A stretch of 23,651 nucleotides of DNA from positions 1-23,651 of IMG/VR virus record IMGVR_UViG_3300040815_002537; one strand, 5' to 3'. Position 1 is the first letter of the stretch; the number at the start of each line of letters is the position of its first letter. The notes below the pieces were generated by a model. The model was not told the origin of the DNA. It ran no database searches and saw only the letters and a list, made by a program, of their open reading frames with translations. Made by a program: the position numbers and the translations under genes. This document shows, one piece after another, positions 3,082-20,736 of the stretch. The stretch comes from a virus.

Positions 3082-3589
3082 CAGAGCCTGTCGAACCAAA
3101 CCCACCATCACGTGAAGTTTTTTGACCAGGTCTGTCTAAAATTTGTTCCATCGCATATTTTTTTACAGGTTCTAGCATTGCTTGTGCAAGCCTTTCCCCA
3201 TCCTGAATAACAACCAAACTTTCTGATACGTTCTGCATCATAATAAAAGATTCTTCCACATAGTCACTATCAATAATACCTACACTATTAGGAAGTATCA
3301 GGCCCTTTTTCAGGCCTGTACTTGATCTGTTATATAGTTTCAAAACATTATTCTTTGGAATATCAAAGATAAGACCAGTTGGAACTAATGCTCTGTCACC
3401 AGGTGTAATTTGAATAGAAGTTTTACCTGATATTACTTTAGGAACAAGTTTTGTTTTCTTATTCCACGTGTTGTAAGAAATTACATCAGAGCCCATATTA
3501 ATACAAGCTCTAACATCAAAACAAGCAGAACCTTCTGTTGCAAAAGAAGGCATAGTCGCTTTTTCATTTACCAAATATATTTTCAACAT
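3077..3589 (-). CDS. dut: dUTPase (trimeric dUTP diphosphatase)
   Basis: Hydrolyses dUTP to dUMP and pyrophosphate, keeping uracil out of DNA and supplying the precursor of dTMP. All five motifs of the trimeric family are visible in 170 residues: SACFDVRA (about 21-28), NRSSTGLKKG (88-97), GIIDSDYVEE (104-113, with the catalytic Asp), QDGERLAQAML (129-139) and the C-terminal Phe-bearing arm RDGGFGSTG (160-168). The segment between motifs 1 and 2 (residues 30-60) is somewhat longer than in the E. coli enzyme. It begins 7 bases after the regA stop, with only a weak GGGAAG site, so it is probably co-transcribed with regA and the replisome genes. Confidence 0.95.
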   Translation of the reverse strand: MLKIYLVNEKATMPSFATEGSACFDVRACINMGSDVISYNTWNKKTKLVPKVISGKTSIQITPGDRALVPTGLIFDIPKNNVLKLYNRSSTGLKKGLILPNSVGIIDSDYVEESFIMMQNVSESLVVIQDGERLAQAMLEPVKKYAMEQILDRPGQKTSRDGGFGSTGSV

Positions 3590-3595
3590 AATATT

Positions 3596-3991
3596 TTATT
3601 TCTTCCCAATGTTATATTTTACTGCCAATTCCCAATTGTCTTTTTCCTTATAGGAAATTATTTTAATCTGACTTAGCGGAGCAACTGGTTCGCTATTATC
3701 AATAGGTTCTATGAGTTCCCATTCGCTAAGTAAATTTACTATTGTATTTCTTCTTGCTTTATCTTCATCTGTAAATGTGTTATTTTTACCATCAAGTATA
3801 AACAATTCTTTAAAATGAAGAATAGCATACCTACCCTGTTTATGTAGGATATGACACGATTGATATAGTTTTCTTTCCTTACGAGAAGAAATTCCAATAC
3901 GTGTGAGTGTTTCTTTTATCTTCAAAAAGCTATCTGGAGTAGGAAGCTTGATTTCAACACCGACTCCTTTAAATATATCTTCAGTTTGCAT
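3596..3991 (-). CDS. regA: RegA translational repressor of early genes
   Basis: A 131-residue protein that aligns by eye along its length with T4 RegA. Matching blocks are F-L-K-I-K-E-T-L-T-R-I-G-I (about 22-34), LYQSCHILHKQGRYAILHFKEL (42-63), TDEDKARRNTIVNLLSEWELIE (73-95) and a C-terminal block ending in KYNIGKK. T4 RegA binds the start regions of many early mRNAs, including 44, 45 and its own, and blocks ribosome loading. Here it follows 62, as in T4. The N-terminus is about 10 residues longer than in T4. A 74-base leader with a tiny reading frame separates it from 62. Confidence 0.95.
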   Translation of the reverse strand: MQTEDIFKGVGVEIKLPTPDSFLKIKETLTRIGISSRKERKLYQSCHILHKQGRYAILHFKELFILDGKNNTFTDEDKARRNTIVNLLSEWELIEPIDNSEPVAPLSQIKIISYKEKDNWELAVKYNIGKK

Positions 3992-4065: not shown

Positions 4066-4473
4066 TTATTTACCAGGTCCGCCCATACTCAATTTCTCTC
4101 GTATGGCTTTTAATTGGTCGGTTGATAACATTTTTAAATACATTTTTGCTACTGTGCGATTGCAAGAATATACTTCTTGAAGGGCATCAAGATCATTATT
4201 TTTGTCTGCTTTAGGCCATTTTGACCAACGCTTACGCTTTCGTAATGCTGCACGATAATATTGGAATTGTGCATCTTGGAATAAATTAGGTCGCATATTC
4301 ATTTCATTTGCATGAAGTATGGTATCCTCAAAATTTGTAAATCCACGATTTACGATATATGCATTATATTGTTTTTCTGTAAGCTCCGGGTTATCACTCT
4401 CGTTGATAAGATCTTTTTTGGTTTCCGATGCTGCCTTGATAAAATCAAATGGGCTTATTTCGTTTTTACTCAT
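4066..4473 (-). CDS. 62: Clamp-loader small subunit gp62
   Basis: Forms the clamp loader with four copies of gp44 and opens the gp45 ring onto DNA. The 135-residue protein follows the marine T4-like form: SPFDFIKAASETKKDLI at the start, YIVNRGFTNFEDTILHANEMN (about 38-58), then a basic block RKRKRWSKWPK (about 78-88). This is shorter than T4 gp62 (187 aa), as in cyanophages. I start it at the Met of MSKNEISPF because CGGAG lies 6 bases upstream; the frame is open 26 codons further but those residues look unrelated. Order 44, (Zn-ribbon), 62, regA supports the call. Confidence 0.88.
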   Translation of the reverse strand: MSKNEISPFDFIKAASETKKDLINESDNPELTEKQYNAYIVNRGFTNFEDTILHANEMNMRPNLFQDAQFQYYRAALRKRKRWSKWPKADKNNDLDALQEVYSCNRTVAKMYLKMLSTDQLKAIREKLSMGGPGK

Positions 4474-4492
4474 ATTAAACTCCGAAACTGAA

Positions 4493-4678
4493 TCAGCGTA
4501 CTTTCTCAAGTGCTTCCAATATATCATTAAATTCCATGGCGCATGTCTCACACATCTGTACCGTATGAGGACCTTCTGCAGTTTCCATATGGACCGAATA
4601 TATTTCGTCTTTATTCAAGGTTACCTCACAGTTCATGCAGGTATGTTTTTTGATAAGACGACCCATCCATTCGCTCAT
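4493..4678 (-). CDS. Small zinc-ribbon-like protein between 44 and 62
   Basis: A 61-residue protein with two CxxC pairs, CMNC (14-17) and CETC (43-46), spaced as in a small zinc ribbon or treble-clef fold. Its ATG overlaps the 44 stop (ATGA), implying translational coupling, and 62 begins 19 bases after it. T4 has no gene between 44 and 62. Being coupled to the clamp-loader genes suggests it acts on the replisome or on transcription, but I know of no assigned role. Confidence 0.75.
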   Translation of the reverse strand: MSEWMGRLIKKHTCMNCEVTLNKDEIYSVHMETAEGPHTVQMCETCAMEFNDILEALEKVR

Positions 4679-5625
4679 TTGAACTCTGCTTCCATCATTA
4701 CTTCAGTAAGAAATGCAACCATATTTACTTCTTGGTCAGCAACAAAGTTTGCCTTGTACATATAATCGGCAAGTGTTACGCAGAAGCCAGGAAGGGTTCT
4801 AAATTCAACACGGTCAGTTCCGGCATCATATACACGTCGGAACATTTCATTCATATCCTGGTCTGAATTTTTTGCAACCCATTTACGCATATTCGTGAAG
4901 TCTTTTTCCTTGAGCAACCGAAAAAGTTCATCAATGGATTCCTGTTTGATATTAACAAAGATGCCTTCGTCAATTTTACCAGATGCCGCATATGATTGTA
5001 ATTCAGTCAATACACGACGAAAGTCAGGAAAATGTTTTTGAATTACTTTTGCAACTACAGCCTTGTCATATGCTATGTTTTCCGTTTCAAGAATTGCCTC
5101 TACCCGTTTCATAAATTGCATAGCAAGGGATGGACGTTCTGACGTTTCAATGGTAAAATCAATTTCTGAAAGTCGAGAACGGAGTGGTGCAATGATACGG
5201 TTTTTAAAGTTACAAGTAAAGATAAAACCACAGTTTGAGGAATATTCCTCAATAAAGTTTCTCAGCGCGGGTTGAACCGAGGTTGCATTAAGATAATCCG
5301 CCTCATCAAAAATAACATATTTACGGCCGCCTGTTAGGGATACAGCAGATGCATATGTTGATATATCGTATCGGAGAGTATCAATATTGACGTTGAGTGA
5401 TCCGTTTTTGACAATATAGTCACAGTCTAACTCATCAAGCATTGCTTTAGCAATTGTTGTTTTGCCAACGCCTGGACCGCCAGATAAAAGTAAATTTGGT
5501 ATAGAGGAATCAGAAACAAACTTTTGAAAAACTTCTTTTGTTTTTTGTGGTAAGATTGTATCTTGTATTTTTTGTGGACGATACTTTTCCACCCACAAGA
5601 CCTCATTCTGTTTTGCGTCAAGCAT
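4675..5625 (-). CDS. 44: Clamp-loader large subunit gp44 (AAA+ ATPase)
   Basis: The ATPase subunit that loads the gp45 clamp. At 316 residues it matches T4 gp44 (319). Visible motifs are W-V-E-K-Y-R-P near the start (11-17), Walker A GGPGVGKTT (49-57), Walker B FDEAD (106-110) and a sensor region FIFTCNFKNRIIAPLRSRL (134-152). The SRC arginine-finger motif of AAA+ loaders reads SRL here, keeping the Arg. AAGGTG lies 8 bases before the ATG. A sigma70-like promoter lies 34-62 bases upstream, so 44, the Zn-ribbon gene, 62, regA and dut can be transcribed from here. RegA probably represses it, as in T4. Confidence 0.97.
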   Translation of the reverse strand: MLDAKQNEVLWVEKYRPQKIQDTILPQKTKEVFQKFVSDSSIPNLLLSGGPGVGKTTIAKAMLDELDCDYIVKNGSLNVNIDTLRYDISTYASAVSLTGGRKYVIFDEADYLNATSVQPALRNFIEEYSSNCGFIFTCNFKNRIIAPLRSRLSEIDFTIETSERPSLAMQFMKRVEAILETENIAYDKAVVAKVIQKHFPDFRRVLTELQSYAASGKIDEGIFVNIKQESIDELFRLLKEKDFTNMRKWVAKNSDQDMNEMFRRVYDAGTDRVEFRTLPGFCVTLADYMYKANFVADQEVNMVAFLTEVMMEAEFK

Positions 5626-5658
5626 ATATTTTCACCTTTGTACATGATATAGAATAGT

Positions 5659-5687
5659 ATTATATAATAAAATGGGGAGGAAGTCAA
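5659..5687 (-). promoter_or_regulatory. Sigma70-like promoter for the 44-62-regA-dut unit
   Basis: TTGACT (5682-5687), 17 bases, then an exact TATAAT (5659-5664) on the - strand, with a start near 5652 and the 44 ATG at 5625. The -35 box lies in the loop of the terminator hairpin at 5674-5698. Confidence 0.75.
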
Positions 5688-5698
5688 CCCTCCTCCCC
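5674..5698 (-). terminator. Terminator hairpin overlapping the gene 44 promoter
   Basis: An 8-bp perfect stem (GGGGAGGA / TCCTCCCC) with a 9-base loop, followed on the - strand by ATTTTATTATA. It begins 12 bases beyond the stop of the 85-aa gene. The T-run is broken by A, so efficiency is uncertain; some read-through from 45 is likely. Confidence 0.65.
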
Positions 5699-5709
5699 TA
5701 AAAGATTGC

Positions 5710-5967
5710 TTAATTAGCAACCTTTGAACTCAAGGGTCCTTGTGGTTGTGCGCCTGCAACATCAACATCAGTATCTTCTGGCTGTTGCTGTTGAGGTGAA
5801 TTTTGTTGGACATATGCCTCCAACTTGTTACGAAGCATGCCTACGCTGGCAATCTCGTTTCCTTGCAAACCACCACGGCGGGTTACTACATCAATCAATT
5901 GAACCATAGTAGCAATGTCATTGATTGTAACAGTTACTTCTTGTTGTTGCATCATTTGGTTTTCCAT
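5710..5967 (-). CDS. Conserved-type small phage protein between 45 and 44 (85 aa)
   Basis: The N-terminal two-thirds holds a compact helical block, EVTVTINDIATMVQLIDVVTRRGG followed by NEIASVGMLRNKLEAYVQQ (about residues 10-55). A Gln-rich, acidic tail follows that looks disordered. The block resembles a small protein I recall beside gene 45 in marine T4-like phages, where its function is unknown. AAGGAT precedes the ATG. It starts 6 bases after the 45 stop, so it is translated from the same message as the clamp. A terminator follows at once. A clamp-related role is possible but only inferred from position. Confidence 0.78.
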   Translation of the reverse strand: MENQMMQQQEVTVTINDIATMVQLIDVVTRRGGLQGNEIASVGMLRNKLEAYVQQNSPQQQQPEDTDVDVAGAQPQGPLSSKVAN

Positions 5968-5973
5968 ATTTAA

Positions 5974-6636
5974 TTATCCTTTTTTATAAGTCGACTTTGA
6001 ATCAATTGCCACAAAATAAGTGACGTTTTCACCTTTGAACTCCGAGATACCTTTTGAGCAAAGCGTAACCCGATAGTCTTGGGGCAATAGTTTAAGGTTG
6101 TCAGTTTTAATGACAATATTAAAATCATCAACAGTATCACCGAGTTCAATGCCATAATCATCGGCGCCGGTGTTTGAACTGTCAATGGCCTTGAGGAAGC
6201 ATTTCCCTTCGGTACCAACGAAAGCAACCTCAGTAAATTGGAGAACCCCTGCTGCCTTGAGAACAGATTGGAGGTCATCCCATTTCACATCTACCACTAC
6301 ATCGGCAGAAGGAATAGTAATATCTTTTTCGGGTGGTGTGTGGATCATAGAAATGTCTGCATAGACATATTTTGTCCGCCGTTTACCTTCGGAGATAATA
6401 AAGTATTTATCATGGAATTCCACATCTGGGTCTTCATACAATGATAAAATTGAGAGGAATCTTGACATATCATAGATACAAGCATCTGACGGAATGGTGT
6501 CAGGAATGTTTGCAATCGCAATCAAAGTTTTTTCGGGTGTAATTGTTTTAAGTACACTACCCTGGCGAAACAAGATTGATTTGTTGATATTAGCAAAACT
6601 CTTGAGGATTGTAATTGTGCGTTCAGTAAATTTCAT
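5974..6636 (-). CDS. 45: Sliding clamp gp45
   Basis: The ring-shaped processivity factor for gp43, which in T4 is also the mobile activator of late transcription through gp55 and gp33. The protein is 220 residues (T4: 228). Matching features include the N-terminal T-I-T-I-L-K-S-F-A-N-I-N (about 8-19), an IYDMSRFLSILSLYEDPDV block (about 54-72) and a C-terminal FKGENVTYFVAIDSKS (about 201-216), equivalent to T4 FEGEHANYVVALEADS. AGGAGA precedes the ATG. Its promoter lies inside the end of the upstream glycosyltransferase gene. Neighbours 44 and 62 load it. Confidence 0.96.
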   Translation of the reverse strand: MKFTERTITILKSFANINKSILFRQGSVLKTITPEKTLIAIANIPDTIPSDACIYDMSRFLSILSLYEDPDVEFHDKYFIISEGKRRTKYVYADISMIHTPPEKDITIPSADVVVDVKWDDLQSVLKAAGVLQFTEVAFVGTEGKCFLKAIDSSNTGADDYGIELGDTVDDFNIVIKTDNLKLLPQDYRVTLCSKGISEFKGENVTYFVAIDSKSTYKKG

Positions 6637-6664: not shown

Positions 6665-7570
6665 TCATTTATTCATTCTATTACGTTTCTTCTGTTTTGT
6701 CAACACATTTTTTGATTTATTTGTATATGTTGATTTTTTAGCAGAAGCATCACTTGTTGCAGATACACCTAAGGTTCCAATAGCACCCATGTCACCTCGG
6801 AATACATATGAACCAACATGATTTAATTTCATCCATGGGCACATCCATACAGACATCCCTGCCTCCCGTGCTTTGCGGCAGAAGAAGTAATCTTCTGAAA
6901 GATATCTTTTTGACTCGGGATCAATCACACAATCAAAATATGCATGAATGTCTCTGGTGCCATCAAAGTTTTCTGTGCGGGCATGATCTGGTCTATATGC
7001 TAATTCAGGATATGCTTTTTTGTATTTTTCAAAAACTTCCCGAGGAATAAGCATAAATCCAGTACCACCTTCTCTGATTTCCAGAGGCTCACCCAATTCA
7101 AATGATGCAGTTCCCTTTACCGGGTTAAAAACAAAATCGGAGGTATATTGTTCCAAATTAAAGGGGTTTTCATCTGCCTTACCAGCGGCCGCAGCCTTTG
7201 CTACCTTTTCCCAGGCAATTGTTTTCTTGGGATATGGGGCAGTCATAATATCATATTTTTCTGGGTTTTGGGTTTGAATCCCAAGCATACCAAGTACATC
7301 ACGAGCATCAAAACTAATGTCTGAGTCAATAAACATTAAATGAGTAAAATCCGATCTGAGGAACTCATCAACTACATAGTTCCTTGCTCTTTGTACTAAA
7401 CTTTCATTAAAAAGAAAATAATATTTTAATTTTATGCCTGCGGCTGTGCAGAGCATAGAAAGATCATTTGTTGCCTTTGTGTACATACCAGTAGCATTGC
7501 CACCGTACATCGGCGTTCCCACCATAATAGAATACGGTCTAAGTTGTTCCGTAGTAATTTCAATTTTCAT
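6665..7570 (-). CDS. Family-2/Anp1-like glycosyltransferase
   Basis: A 301-residue GT-A-fold enzyme. Visible parts are IMVGTPMYGGNATGMYT at the start (about 15-31), a region resembling Anp1/mannosyltransferase II (FNESLVQRARNYVVDEFL, about 54-71), then MFIDSDISFDARDVL (79-93) with a DxD-type metal and nucleotide-sugar site, and SEDYFFCRKAREAG (about 223-236), the usual acceptor-side E-D. The last 40 residues are low-complexity and basic. It starts 2 bases after dexA with a distant GGAG site. Acceptor unknown: host surface sugars, virion proteins or a modified DNA base are all possible. The promoter of 45 is embedded in its last codons, which may explain the basic tail. Confidence 0.82.
   Translation of the reverse strand: MKIEITTEQLRPYSIMVGTPMYGGNATGMYTKATNDLSMLCTAAGIKLKYYFLFNESLVQRARNYVVDEFLRSDFTHLMFIDSDISFDARDVLGMLGIQTQNPEKYDIMTAPYPKKTIAWEKVAKAAAAGKADENPFNLEQYTSDFVFNPVKGTASFELGEPLEIREGGTGFMLIPREVFEKYKKAYPELAYRPDHARTENFDGTRDIHAYFDCVIDPESKRYLSEDYFFCRKAREAGMSVWMCPWMKLNHVGSYVFRGDMGAIGTLGVSATSDASAKKSTYTNKSKNVLTKQKKRNRMNK
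6675..6713 (-). promoter_or_regulatory. Promoter for gene 45 inside the end of the glycosyltransferase gene
   Basis: AAAAAATGTGTTGACA (6698-6713) carries the -35 box, followed after 17 bases by TAGAAT (6675-6680; one mismatch). A start near 6668 would give a short leader to the 45 ATG at 6636. The 16-mer recurs at 11800-11815 and 18699-18714. Confidence 0.75.
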
Positions 7571-8527: not shown

Positions 8528-9378
8528 ACGTTCATCTCTCTAATATATGTTTTTAAATCTTTTTTGGTATTCCAGCCAAGACCTAATGTTTTATCTGATA
8601 TTACTGGCGCAGACATTCTATTGCCTCTGCGTTCTTCTAACATTTTTGTAACCCCACCGTACATTGCGGCAACTTCTAGTATGGTGTACGAATCTGCATG
8701 CCCGATACCATACCCATCACCGGAACCTTTATCACCAACAAGCTTTAAGCCACTCACAATGTCTTGTACATGAGTAAAGTTACGTTTTTGTGTTCCTGGT
8801 GAAACAACCGTAAGAGGATCACCTTTGCGCATTGTCTCTGCAAATTTAGCAATCAAGGTTGCATATTTTCCTGTTTGAATCTCACGTGGGCCATAAACAT
8901 TGTAAAAATAAGTTATTGCATAGTCAAGCCCGAACCATTTACCGTAATTCTGTACCAACGTGGTGTTTGTTGCTTTTGTCCACGCATATGGGCTCATAAC
9001 ATAATCGTCAGTTTGATCTGCAAATTTTGTGGAAGAGCCAGAGTAAATAAGTTTTGCATTATGCTTACGAGCAAATTCTAAAACCTGAAACGTCCCTTCA
9101 ACATTATATTTATGGACTAAATCAATATCTTCAAAACTTTGTTCTACCCTAGAATATTCTCCCAGGTGATAGATAATATCTGGTTTGGGTATTCTCATAT
9201 CATTTATAGCAGTTGTATTGCCACGAATATATTGCACACCTTTGACGTGGTTGCTTTTCGATCCGGTAAAGTAATTATCCAACGAAATTACAACATGACC
9301 TTCGCTTGCAAGACTTTCACATAAATGACTTCCAACAAATCCAGCACCGCCGGTGACGAGATAGGTTTTAATATCCAT
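8524..9378 (-). CDS. NAD-dependent sugar-nucleotide epimerase/dehydratase (extended SDR)
   Basis: A 284-residue extended short-chain dehydrogenase of the UDP-glucose 4-epimerase/dehydratase type. It shows the Rossmann motif TGGAGFVGSHL (9-19), the acidic residue after strand 2 (SLDNYFTGS, 32-40), a serine-rich strand YSGSST (112-117) and catalytic YAWTK (Y131, K135). The substrate-side F-Y-N-V-Y-G-P-R-E motif lies near 158-166. It should interconvert or dehydrate an NDP-sugar. The gene overlaps the end of the TAGT gene by 11 bases, with AAGGAG before its ATG, so it probably provides the donor sugar for that glycosyltransferase. Which sugar cannot be told. Confidence 0.88.
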   Translation of the reverse strand: MDIKTYLVTGGAGFVGSHLCESLASEGHVVISLDNYFTGSKSNHVKGVQYIRGNTTAINDMRIPKPDIIYHLGEYSRVEQSFEDIDLVHKYNVEGTFQVLEFARKHNAKLIYSGSSTKFADQTDDYVMSPYAWTKATNTTLVQNYGKWFGLDYAITYFYNVYGPREIQTGKYATLIAKFAETMRKGDPLTVVSPGTQKRNFTHVQDIVSGLKLVGDKGSGDGYGIGHADSYTILEVAAMYGGVTKMLEERRGNRMSAPVISDKTLGLGWNTKKDLKTYIREMNV

Positions 9379-10585
9379 GTATAGCTCTCCTTCCAGTAGG
9401 AAAATCTGGTTGACTGAAATCAGTATCTATATATTGGTCAGGTTCCTCATAATTTCTAGCCAATACCATACCATAATTATCTACTTTGTTTAAAATGTCA
9501 ACATCTTTTTTCAACTTGAGCACATTTTGTCTGGCAGGTTGCCCTTGCTCATTTTTAATTGCTTCTAGATCAACATGATGGTGTGTACGGCCATATCGTT
9601 CAACAAGAGTCACGACATCTGGGTGCATTTCTTTTAACATTTGAGATTTACGGAGAGAAGCATCTTCTTCGTAATTATTATAAACTTCTGAAGTGTTACC
9701 ACCTTTAACGGTACCAGTTCTCAATTTACCACACAAATAAGAATAGAACAGCATGGTATTCAAACCACGCTTAAGTACACGGATAGATAAATCAACATCT
9801 TCGTTAAATTTGCCACGCCATTTTTCTGGGCAATCATTATCAATAAGAAAGCACGACATGATTCTTGTGTTTAAAATATATGGCGGGTAATCAGCATCAT
9901 CAACTACAAAGAATTTATATTGAAATCCTGCAAGAGCAACATTTTCAAATCGGTCGACATAATTCTCAGCAGATCTGAATATTGCAGAGCCTTTATCCAC
10001 ACGGTATCGTTTGTTTTTATGTGTTCGCCAAAATTCTGAAATATTATCATCCATCAACCAATGCCGTTTATGGCCATTTGCTTGTGAATGCTCCCAGCAC
10101 CAATTTCTTGCAGGGCCGGAGCCTTTACCATGATTGCTGAAAGGTAATTTTAAAACTTTACGAGGCTCAATGACCTCACAGTATTTTTCATATTCTTGAG
10201 GCTCTACAGCAATAAAATAATCAACACCCATTCGCTCGAGCGCACGACTAGTGTGACGTGTTTCCCATCTACCTTTTGAAATTATATAAATGGGATATCG
10301 TGTCTCATAAATGGCATCTGGTTCTTGCTCGATATAACGATTCATATTATTTCGTTCACGGTCTTTAGCAGGATACCAAAGCACATTTGTTTTATCAGTC
10401 AATTTGTAGCCTAAAGTCTCACCAAAATGAGCTCTATCTGCCTTTGATTTAAAGTTAATCGTCAACTGTTTTTCTGGTTCAAGTTTTAATGTATTGAACG
10501 ATGGCATTCCACCAGCATACCATTGCATGTATGCATTGCGCCATTCTTTTTGCAATTCATCAAACGATTCTGCGGGTAAATTCAT
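9368..10585 (-). CDS. TAGT/GREB1-type glycosyltransferase (predicted DNA-base glycosyltransferase)
   Basis: A 405-residue protein with an N-terminal domain (about 36-75, LTINFKSKADRAHFGETLGY then NVLWYP) and a GT-A-like catalytic domain from about 97. Signatures are PIYIISKGRWETRHTSRALE (98-117), IAVEPQEYEKY (125-135), LPFSNHGKGSGPARNWCWEH (147-166), HWLMDDNI (175-182, DxD-like), a YPPYILNTRIMSCFLI stretch, FNEDVDLSIRVL (about 264-275) and G-R-T-H-H-H-V-D. This matches the TET-associated glycosyltransferase group described in phages by comparative genomics, thought to add sugars to oxidised or hydroxymethylated DNA bases. GGAG lies 8 bases before the ATG. The upstream gene shares its N-terminal domain and the next gene is an epimerase. 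Family call strong; DNA as substrate is inferred. Confidence 0.85.
   Translation of the reverse strand: MNLPAESFDELQKEWRNAYMQWYAGGMPSFNTLKLEPEKQLTINFKSKADRAHFGETLGYKLTDKTNVLWYPAKDRERNNMNRYIEQEPDAIYETRYPIYIISKGRWETRHTSRALERMGVDYFIAVEPQEYEKYCEVIEPRKVLKLPFSNHGKGSGPARNWCWEHSQANGHKRHWLMDDNISEFWRTHKNKRYRVDKGSAIFRSAENYVDRFENVALAGFQYKFFVVDDADYPPYILNTRIMSCFLIDNDCPEKWRGKFNEDVDLSIRVLKRGLNTMLFYSYLCGKLRTGTVKGGNTSEVYNNYEEDASLRKSQMLKEMHPDVVTLVERYGRTHHHVDLEAIKNEQGQPARQNVLKLKKDVDILNKVDNYGMVLARNYEEPDQYIDTDFSQPDFPTGRRAIHGY
9474..9511 (-). promoter_or_regulatory. Weak promoter-like variant upstream of the epimerase gene
   Basis: AAAAAAGATGTTGACA (9496-9511) differs from the shared promoter 16-mer at only a few positions and carries an exact TTGACA. 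TAATTA follows after 16 bases, or GATAAT after 15. It lies within the TAGT gene about 100 bases before the epimerase start. The -10 match is poor. Confidence 0.35.
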
Positions 10586-20708: not shown

Positions 20709-20736
20709 TTGACAAGTGCTCAAGAACGGTTATAAT
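20709..20736 (+). promoter_or_regulatory. Consensus sigma70 promoter on the + strand, antisense to uvsW
   Basis: Exact TTGACA (20709-20714), 16 bases, exact TATAAT (20731-20736), start near 20743. It points into the 3' end of uvsW. No + strand gene lies downstream, so any product would be an antisense RNA. AAGAAC (20722-20727) and GTTCTT (20747-20752) form an inverted repeat around the -10 box. Confidence 0.5.

Follow-up and report, generated by a model that had tools for sequence, protein, structure and literature searches.

How can a phage end one operon and begin the next when both signals appear to lie on the same bases? The question is raised by a short gap in a minus-strand replication cluster of T4 type, found in a 23,651-base virus record, the whole of which was analysed and is called the window here. 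Ahead of the clamp loader gene 44, a hairpin with the features of an intrinsic terminator takes in a -35 box, and a -10 box follows directly after its tail. Judged from the window and its relatives, 5698-5659 probably holds an overlapping intrinsic terminator and sigma-70-type promoter. What the overlap is for is a separate matter, and the readings of it are weighed below where the evidence bears on them.

Genomic setting

The genes and signals of the region are collected in Table 1. Gene 44 is less than 60% identical to its match in all 2,510 annotated phage records, the best-ranked annotated match being that of DLP_6 (55.9% identity). Among the matches listed from uncultured viral contigs (80 loci), identity rises to 87%, and one further contig (L091), with a 100% identical gene 44, comes from the same phage. 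The 85-aa ORF, which is Gln-rich in parts, has relatives in uncultured contigs at the same place and found no match in comparisons with PHROG and Pfam.

Two observations concern other parts of the window. The ORF at 9368-10585 (minus strand) matches the beta-glucosyl-HMC-alpha-glucosyltransferase family (PHROG 842), a hint of glucosylated modified DNA. At 20709-20736, on the plus strand and in a gap between minus-strand ORFs, lies a consensus promoter TTGACA-16-TATAAT, which would give an antisense or short RNA.

Table 1. Signals and genes around the 45-44 junction of the window
Feature	Position	Strand	Details
45-unit promoter TTGACA-17-TAGAAT	6675..6703	(-)	expected start ~6668
Gene 45, sliding clamp	5974..6636	(-)	PHROG 223
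85-aa ORF between genes 45 and 44	5710..5967	(-)	relatives at same junction
Predicted intrinsic terminator hairpin	5674..5698	(-)	10 pairs, loop GTTGA, -21.1 kcal/mol, z -4.4
-35 box TTGACT	5682..5687	(-)	loop and top of hairpin 3' arm
U-rich terminator tail ATTTTATTA, second half of promoter spacer	5665..5673	(-)	
-10 box TATAAT	5659..5664	(-)	17 nt after -35 box; expected start ~5652
TATATCATG, counterpart of TATAT(T/C)ATG element, candidate RegA operator	5643..5651	(-)	
Likely ribosome-binding site of gene 44, AAGGTGA	5632..5638	(-)	read from sequence
Gene 44, clamp loader large subunit	4675..5625	(-)	PHROG 168, E 2.2e-108
Gene 62, clamp loader small subunit	4066..4551	(-)	PHROG 225
regA, translational repressor	3596..3991	(-)	PHROG 242

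Architecture of the composite element

The hairpin (5698-5674) reads GGGGAGGAGG-GTTGA-CTTCCTCCCC; 7 of its 10 pairs are G-C, and none of 200 shuffles gave an RNA fold as good. Directly after this GC-rich stem comes the U-rich tail, which is interrupted (ATTTTATTA) and carries at least five T in eight letters, the rule applied to terminators. The promoter scores 11/12, its hexamers being close to the sigma-70 consensus TTGACA/TATAAT and its spacer of 17 falling in the range of 16-18. The -35 box lies within the hairpin and the -10 box begins 9 nt past its end. In the 6 kb scanned, this hairpin is the richest in G-C pairs among 10 terminator-like sites and the promoter has one of the two best scores. 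From the expected start, a 27-nt leader containing AAGGTGA runs to the gene 44 ATG.

The first-pass annotation had recognised the hairpin, both boxes and the 17-nt spacing, and had pointed out that the same 25 bases are common to terminator and promoter, all of which was confirmed here. The eight pairs of its 8-bp stem are right, but the best fold has two more, a G-U and a G-C. It had placed TTGACT in the loop, where TTGA indeed lies, whereas CT belongs to the 3' arm. The hairpin was also thought to close the gene 45 unit; a unit with its own promoter would end here, but the 85-aa ORF intervenes after gene 45.

The pattern TTGAC...TATAAT has four matches in the window against 0.15 expected. 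The composite arrangement, a -35 box inside a terminator hairpin, occurs once, against a mean of 0.1 and a maximum of 2 in 40 dinucleotide shuffles, none of which gave a composite that combined a promoter of 11/12 with at least 8 stem pairs. A search allowing up to 3 mismatches found no second copy of the element in the 23.7-kb window. The gap between the 85-aa ORF and gene 44 measures 84 bases, and where a terminator and a promoter are both needed in such a gap, their overlap is by itself not surprising; the weight is therefore carried by conservation and recurrence. The shortness of the gap speaks for tight packing, in which the two signals were overlapped without functional coupling, and this explanation is quite possible.

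Conservation in the lineage of the window

The exact pattern from -35 to -10 box occurs in 12 viral contigs, in all of which the -35 box lies 61-64 nt before gene 44. Because a search with this pattern presupposes the element, further searches were run with flank-only patterns, free of hairpin and promoter, that were taken from sister contigs and represent either the leader or the end of the upstream ORF. Each pattern recovered 11 contigs, all within the 12 that carry the exact pattern, and TTGACT-17-TATAAT is kept in 11 of the 11 recovered through either flank. Only these flank searches are free of circularity, since the clade is defined by the promoter pattern and its own promoter count (6/6) is circular.

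Six of the 12 contigs were compared with the window. Their 41-nt composite is 85-98% identical to that of the window, a value that includes 27 letters fixed by the search pattern. Gene 44 DNA reaches only 76-78% (third codon positions 47-52%), and the stretch of 90 nt before the gene 58-62%. Stems of 10-12 pairs are present in all six. The stem hardly varies within this lineage, so that evidence from covariation comes only from the distant group described below. In a 63-row tree of gene 44, built from the matches listed, the promoter label, carried by 8 rows, fits one change (support 71/89), which gives moderate support (71) to a single origin of the promoter.

An origin of the element as a mobile cassette found no support, all 12 exact matches lying at the same gene junction and no second copy occurring in the window. 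A near-mode DNA search of annotated phages with the window region gave no match, and the hits of the 87-nt intergenic piece in a distant-mode search (E 0.8 to 9, best 15 of 88 records) were taken as chance.

Upstream regions of genes 44 and 45 in wider relatives

Of 80 listed gene 44 loci, 79 were read upstream; L063, with a partial gene 44, was left out. The counts before genes 44 and 45 exclude upstreams shorter than 110 nt and matches that start beyond the first 3 residues, and the promoter counts also exclude rows of 100% identity. Six flanks flagged as duplicates were dropped as well. By eye, many of the 79 loci have a GC hairpin with a T-rich tail, of varied sequence, before gene 44. Among the matches listed, 41 of the 60 distinct upstreams whose gene 44 is at least 70% identical have a stem at z < -2 before that gene; before gene 45 the figure is 4 of 43. 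The z-score comes from letter shuffles and misses hairpins visible by eye; several of the 19 gene 44 upstreams short of z -2 have a shorter hairpin when read in this way. Stable hairpins protect RNA 3' ends, and the stem could act mainly in the stability or processing of the 3' end of the gene 45 message instead of in termination. With a T-rich tail following the stem in the window and in many relatives, this alternative is highly improbable.

Promoters are distributed differently from stems. Among the matches listed and outside the clade, gene 44 is preceded by a promoter of at least 10/12 in only 1 of the 53 distinct upstreams that have at least 70% identity (2 of 5 at 50-70%), whereas gene 45 has such a promoter in 35 of 38 (6 of 7 at 50-70% identity; shuffles 26/760). 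The gene 45 promoters are mostly TTGACA with a spacer of 17. Since gene 45 has a conserved promoter of its own, the element forms the border between two units, 45-orf85 on one side and 44-62-regA on the other. The predicted gene 44 promoter is a lineage-specific addition at a junction where a putative terminator is common in relatives. The simplest reading is that in the older state gene 45 would have had its own promoter, with a partial stop after its unit and gene 44 reached by read-through, unlike the lineage of the window, where a start would have been placed inside the stop.

These counts also bear on what the first-pass annotation had made of the element. The conservation of stem and loop that it put forward as a check was found, hairpin and promoter being kept in the sister contigs and the stem being common in wider relatives. 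Its idea of a switch between clamp and loader did not hold up as a general one; the gene 44 promoter is missing in nearly all other relatives and is thus a feature of the lineage.

The same rarity of the promoter favours the view that the element is a terminator only, the promoter match being a by-product and gene 44 being read through from the gene 45 promoter, as in most relatives. The frequent stems fit this view, as does phage T4, in which a small hairpin, seen by eye, stands just after gene 45. It is nevertheless unlikely. TTGACT-17-TATAAT survives in every contig found through its flanks, consensus promoters are far more frequent in the window than expected, and the in-loop geometry recurs in unrelated places.

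Some weaker or different arrangements were seen at these loci. In L077 (2943-2980, plus strand), a TATAAT lies inside a hairpin loop at the 45-44 junction, with a weak -35 match 17 nt upstream; this -35 match, TTGATT (4/6), falls within the end of gene 45, as read by eye, and the locus was not counted. TAGACC-18-TATAAT in L053 and L054 is weak and was likewise not counted as the window element.

A further element accompanies the gene 44 start. Among the matches listed, 50 of 63 distinct relatives have TATAT(T/C)ATG within the range from -45 to +9 around the start, at a chance expectation of 0.006 per 54-nt stretch. At other starts it was found for gene 45 in 9 of 74 and for gene 43 in 1 of 1, and near the starts of regA (0/55) and gene 62 (0/6) it was not found. 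According to PMC3014915, RegA binds at or just before AUGs; as regA is also encoded nearby, the counterpart in the window is a candidate RegA operator.

The same geometry in a distant T4-like group

When the first loci were scanned for strong promoters, three unrelated sequences from distant T4-like contigs (L074, L075, L081) also proved to have the -35 box within a terminator hairpin. The distant group consists of relatives found with the gene 44 of L081, and 79 of its 80 listed loci were scanned, L076 being left out. Among the matches listed, 34 of 329 distinct promoters of at least 11/12 are composites, all 34 with a spacer of 17. Over 82 loci, again among the matches listed and with copies not removed, 42 of 368 strong promoters are composite; shuffling the letters that flank the boxes gives an expectation of 0.4. 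These composites lie 441-1102 nt after regA and therefore mostly represent a single syntenic locus met repeatedly; an Hsp20-family gene comes just before the composite in both loci that were tested. When no U tail was required, 43 of the 51 distinct loci with enough sequence (among the matches listed) have the -35 box of a promoter of at least 10/12 inside a hairpin, and in the remaining 8 a promoter scoring 11 or 12 is present, its -35 box lying outside any such hairpin.

Stem covariation was assessed in the largest register; of the 41 distinct sequences, it comprises the 19 that were selected for pairing in that register. The covariation score of these 19 rows is 0.433, against 0.192 in shuffles (0 of 500 as high) and at most 0.193 when slid. 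In this register 94.2% of cells pair and 5 of 9 pairs change on both sides, a measure that 27 of 500 shuffles also reached.

Tight packing accounts less well for this group than for the window. One geometry is favoured, the -10 box following the hairpin by 5-14 nt in 34 of 47 promoter-hairpin pairs among the matches listed. Moreover, the nearest upstream ORF (from a mechanical ORF list) ends at least 60 nt before the hairpin in 29 of 42 rows among the matches listed, which makes lack of space a weaker reason here.

In many composites of the distant group (L074, L081, L135, L188 and others), GGTAAATA or GGTAGATA is seen by eye a few nt before the hairpin. This may be a box of the late-promoter kind, with a start that would lie within the hairpin.

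Recurrence across viruses

The layout was also searched with the pattern GGGNNNTTGACANNNCCC-N11-TATAAT, which matched at least 120 viral stretches, against 24 (a complete count) for a control unpaired by GGG in place of CCC. A full terminator hairpin, defined by a stem of at least 7 pairs, 4 G-C pairs and a T-rich tail, is present in 74 of the 120 listed paired-arm matches and in none of the 24 controls. Among the matches listed, 50 of these 74 lie 300-1300 nt after a regA gene, 4 are at other places on loci that have T4 core genes, and 20 are on loci without a detectable T4 core gene; a few of the latter have poor hairpins by eye (e.g. L220) and three (L204, L205, L226) look T4-like. Genes at the other loci include those for PhoH, ribonucleotide reductase, DnaB helicase, a phosphate transporter subunit and virion proteins (a match was obtained for 8 of the 10 proteins tested). 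Grouped by alignments of at least 100 nt, the 74 fall into 15 clusters among the matches listed, the largest of 52; an earlier grouping into 7 clusters was dropped, short matches having chained unrelated loci. The layout has thus either arisen or been passed on in several contexts.

Beyond the pattern sites, 10 further composites were found among 304 strong promoters in the same 113 loci, against 1 of 59 in the 24 control loci; all 10 are on L209, L258, L266, L269, L294 and L296, and some of their tails are poor. In genome contigs, a stricter pattern with three extra fixed T gave 6 matches, to be set beside the 47 of 120 listed viral matches that conform to it, the two collections being unmatched in size. 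The scanned stretches of T4 (11 kb), DLP_6, Melnitz-3 and ACG-2014d contain no composite. At one locus (L208, 4075-4186, plus strand), a composite with a stem of 9 pairs has its expected start about 2 nt before a tRNA-Arg(tct) gene at 4112-4186.

Comparison with known systems

The nearest described kind is the PeSL (promoter-early stem-loop) cassette of T4-like phages, which reportedly combines a strong sigma-70-like promoter with a stem-loop terminator (Arbiol 2010 and Comeau 2014 are the names attached to it), is said to occur in several similar copies per genome, between non-essential genes, as recombination points, and has a type case in the PeSL papers that we take to be RB49. As in a PeSL, promoter and stem-loop terminator are joined in one intergenic unit in the window. 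The window element differs in being a single copy, within the 23.7-kb window, and in sitting in a replication cluster. In a scan of RB49, 10 of 16 promoter-hairpin pairs are in tandem, terminator first, the -10 box beginning 35-40 nt past the hairpin, a distance that sets them apart from the 9 nt of the window, and none of the 72 strong promoters of RB49 has its -35 box in a terminator hairpin. Although stop and start are joined alike, the window element is not classed as a PeSL, because geometry and location differ. PeSLs are also treated in PMC4503421.

The 45-44 junction of RB49 is the closest single comparison, as it carries the same boxes, TTGACT-17-TATAAT, and a hairpin; unlike in the window, the hairpin comes after the -10 box, and this same junction with another order is in keeping with tight packing. 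Two hairpins in RB49 fill promoter spacers. Near 3179, this phage also has a -10 box that lies within the loop of a hairpin, a stronger case than L077. In T4, the hairpin after gene 45 is a small GC hairpin with TATAAT in its tail (by eye), a likeness to the window, whereas the 11 kb examined held no composite. Judged by its listings, a literature search for terminator loops that contain a -35 box, or for a start signal overlapping a stop, returned nothing on point; its coverage took in few subscription papers and neither of the two PeSL papers.

A model for the junction

We infer that both signals work in infected cells and that the element separates the units 45-orf85 and 44-62-regA, a division for which the sequence gives good support. 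Polymerase from the promoter at 6703-6675 would transcribe gene 45 and the 85-aa ORF, form the GC hairpin in its RNA and mostly stop in the U-rich tail near 5665. With TTGACT in the loop and TATAAT after the tail, the 3' stem arm and the tail would together make up the 17-nt spacer, and a new polymerase would start near 5652 and transcribe 44-62-regA from a short leader. As both need the same 30-40 bp, stop and start would exclude each other. A balance of clamp against loader through the element is plausible, since without the gene 44 promoter the loader messages would depend on leakage through the terminator.

A more far-reaching reading takes the in-loop geometry as a distinct, repeatedly evolved hand-over station, at which a terminated polymerase would restart with sigma on the -35 and -10 boxes and an initiating one would block, and help to stop, an arriving one. 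The spacer made of stem arm and tail, the covarying stems and the near-constant loop TTGAC are compatible with it, and we regard it as rather unlikely. The restart is a speculation based on single-molecule work in which polymerase, once it has terminated at an intrinsic terminator, often remains on the DNA and is able to restart from a promoter close by (PMC6978380, PMC6978322); the accessible parts of these papers treat neither a promoter inside a terminator nor the phage of the window.

Implications

What emerges is a layout that is simple and can be searched for, the predicted stop of one phage operon sharing its bases with the predicted start of the following one; various other phages show the same space-saving design in other letters. 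Because its boxes are fixed and its stems covary, the layout can be found by sequence across uncultured phages, where it can mark operon borders without RNA data. It also offers a natural construct for asking if a terminating polymerase passes to the next promoter. For this T4-like phage group, the element suggests how the messages for clamp and clamp loader may be set apart.
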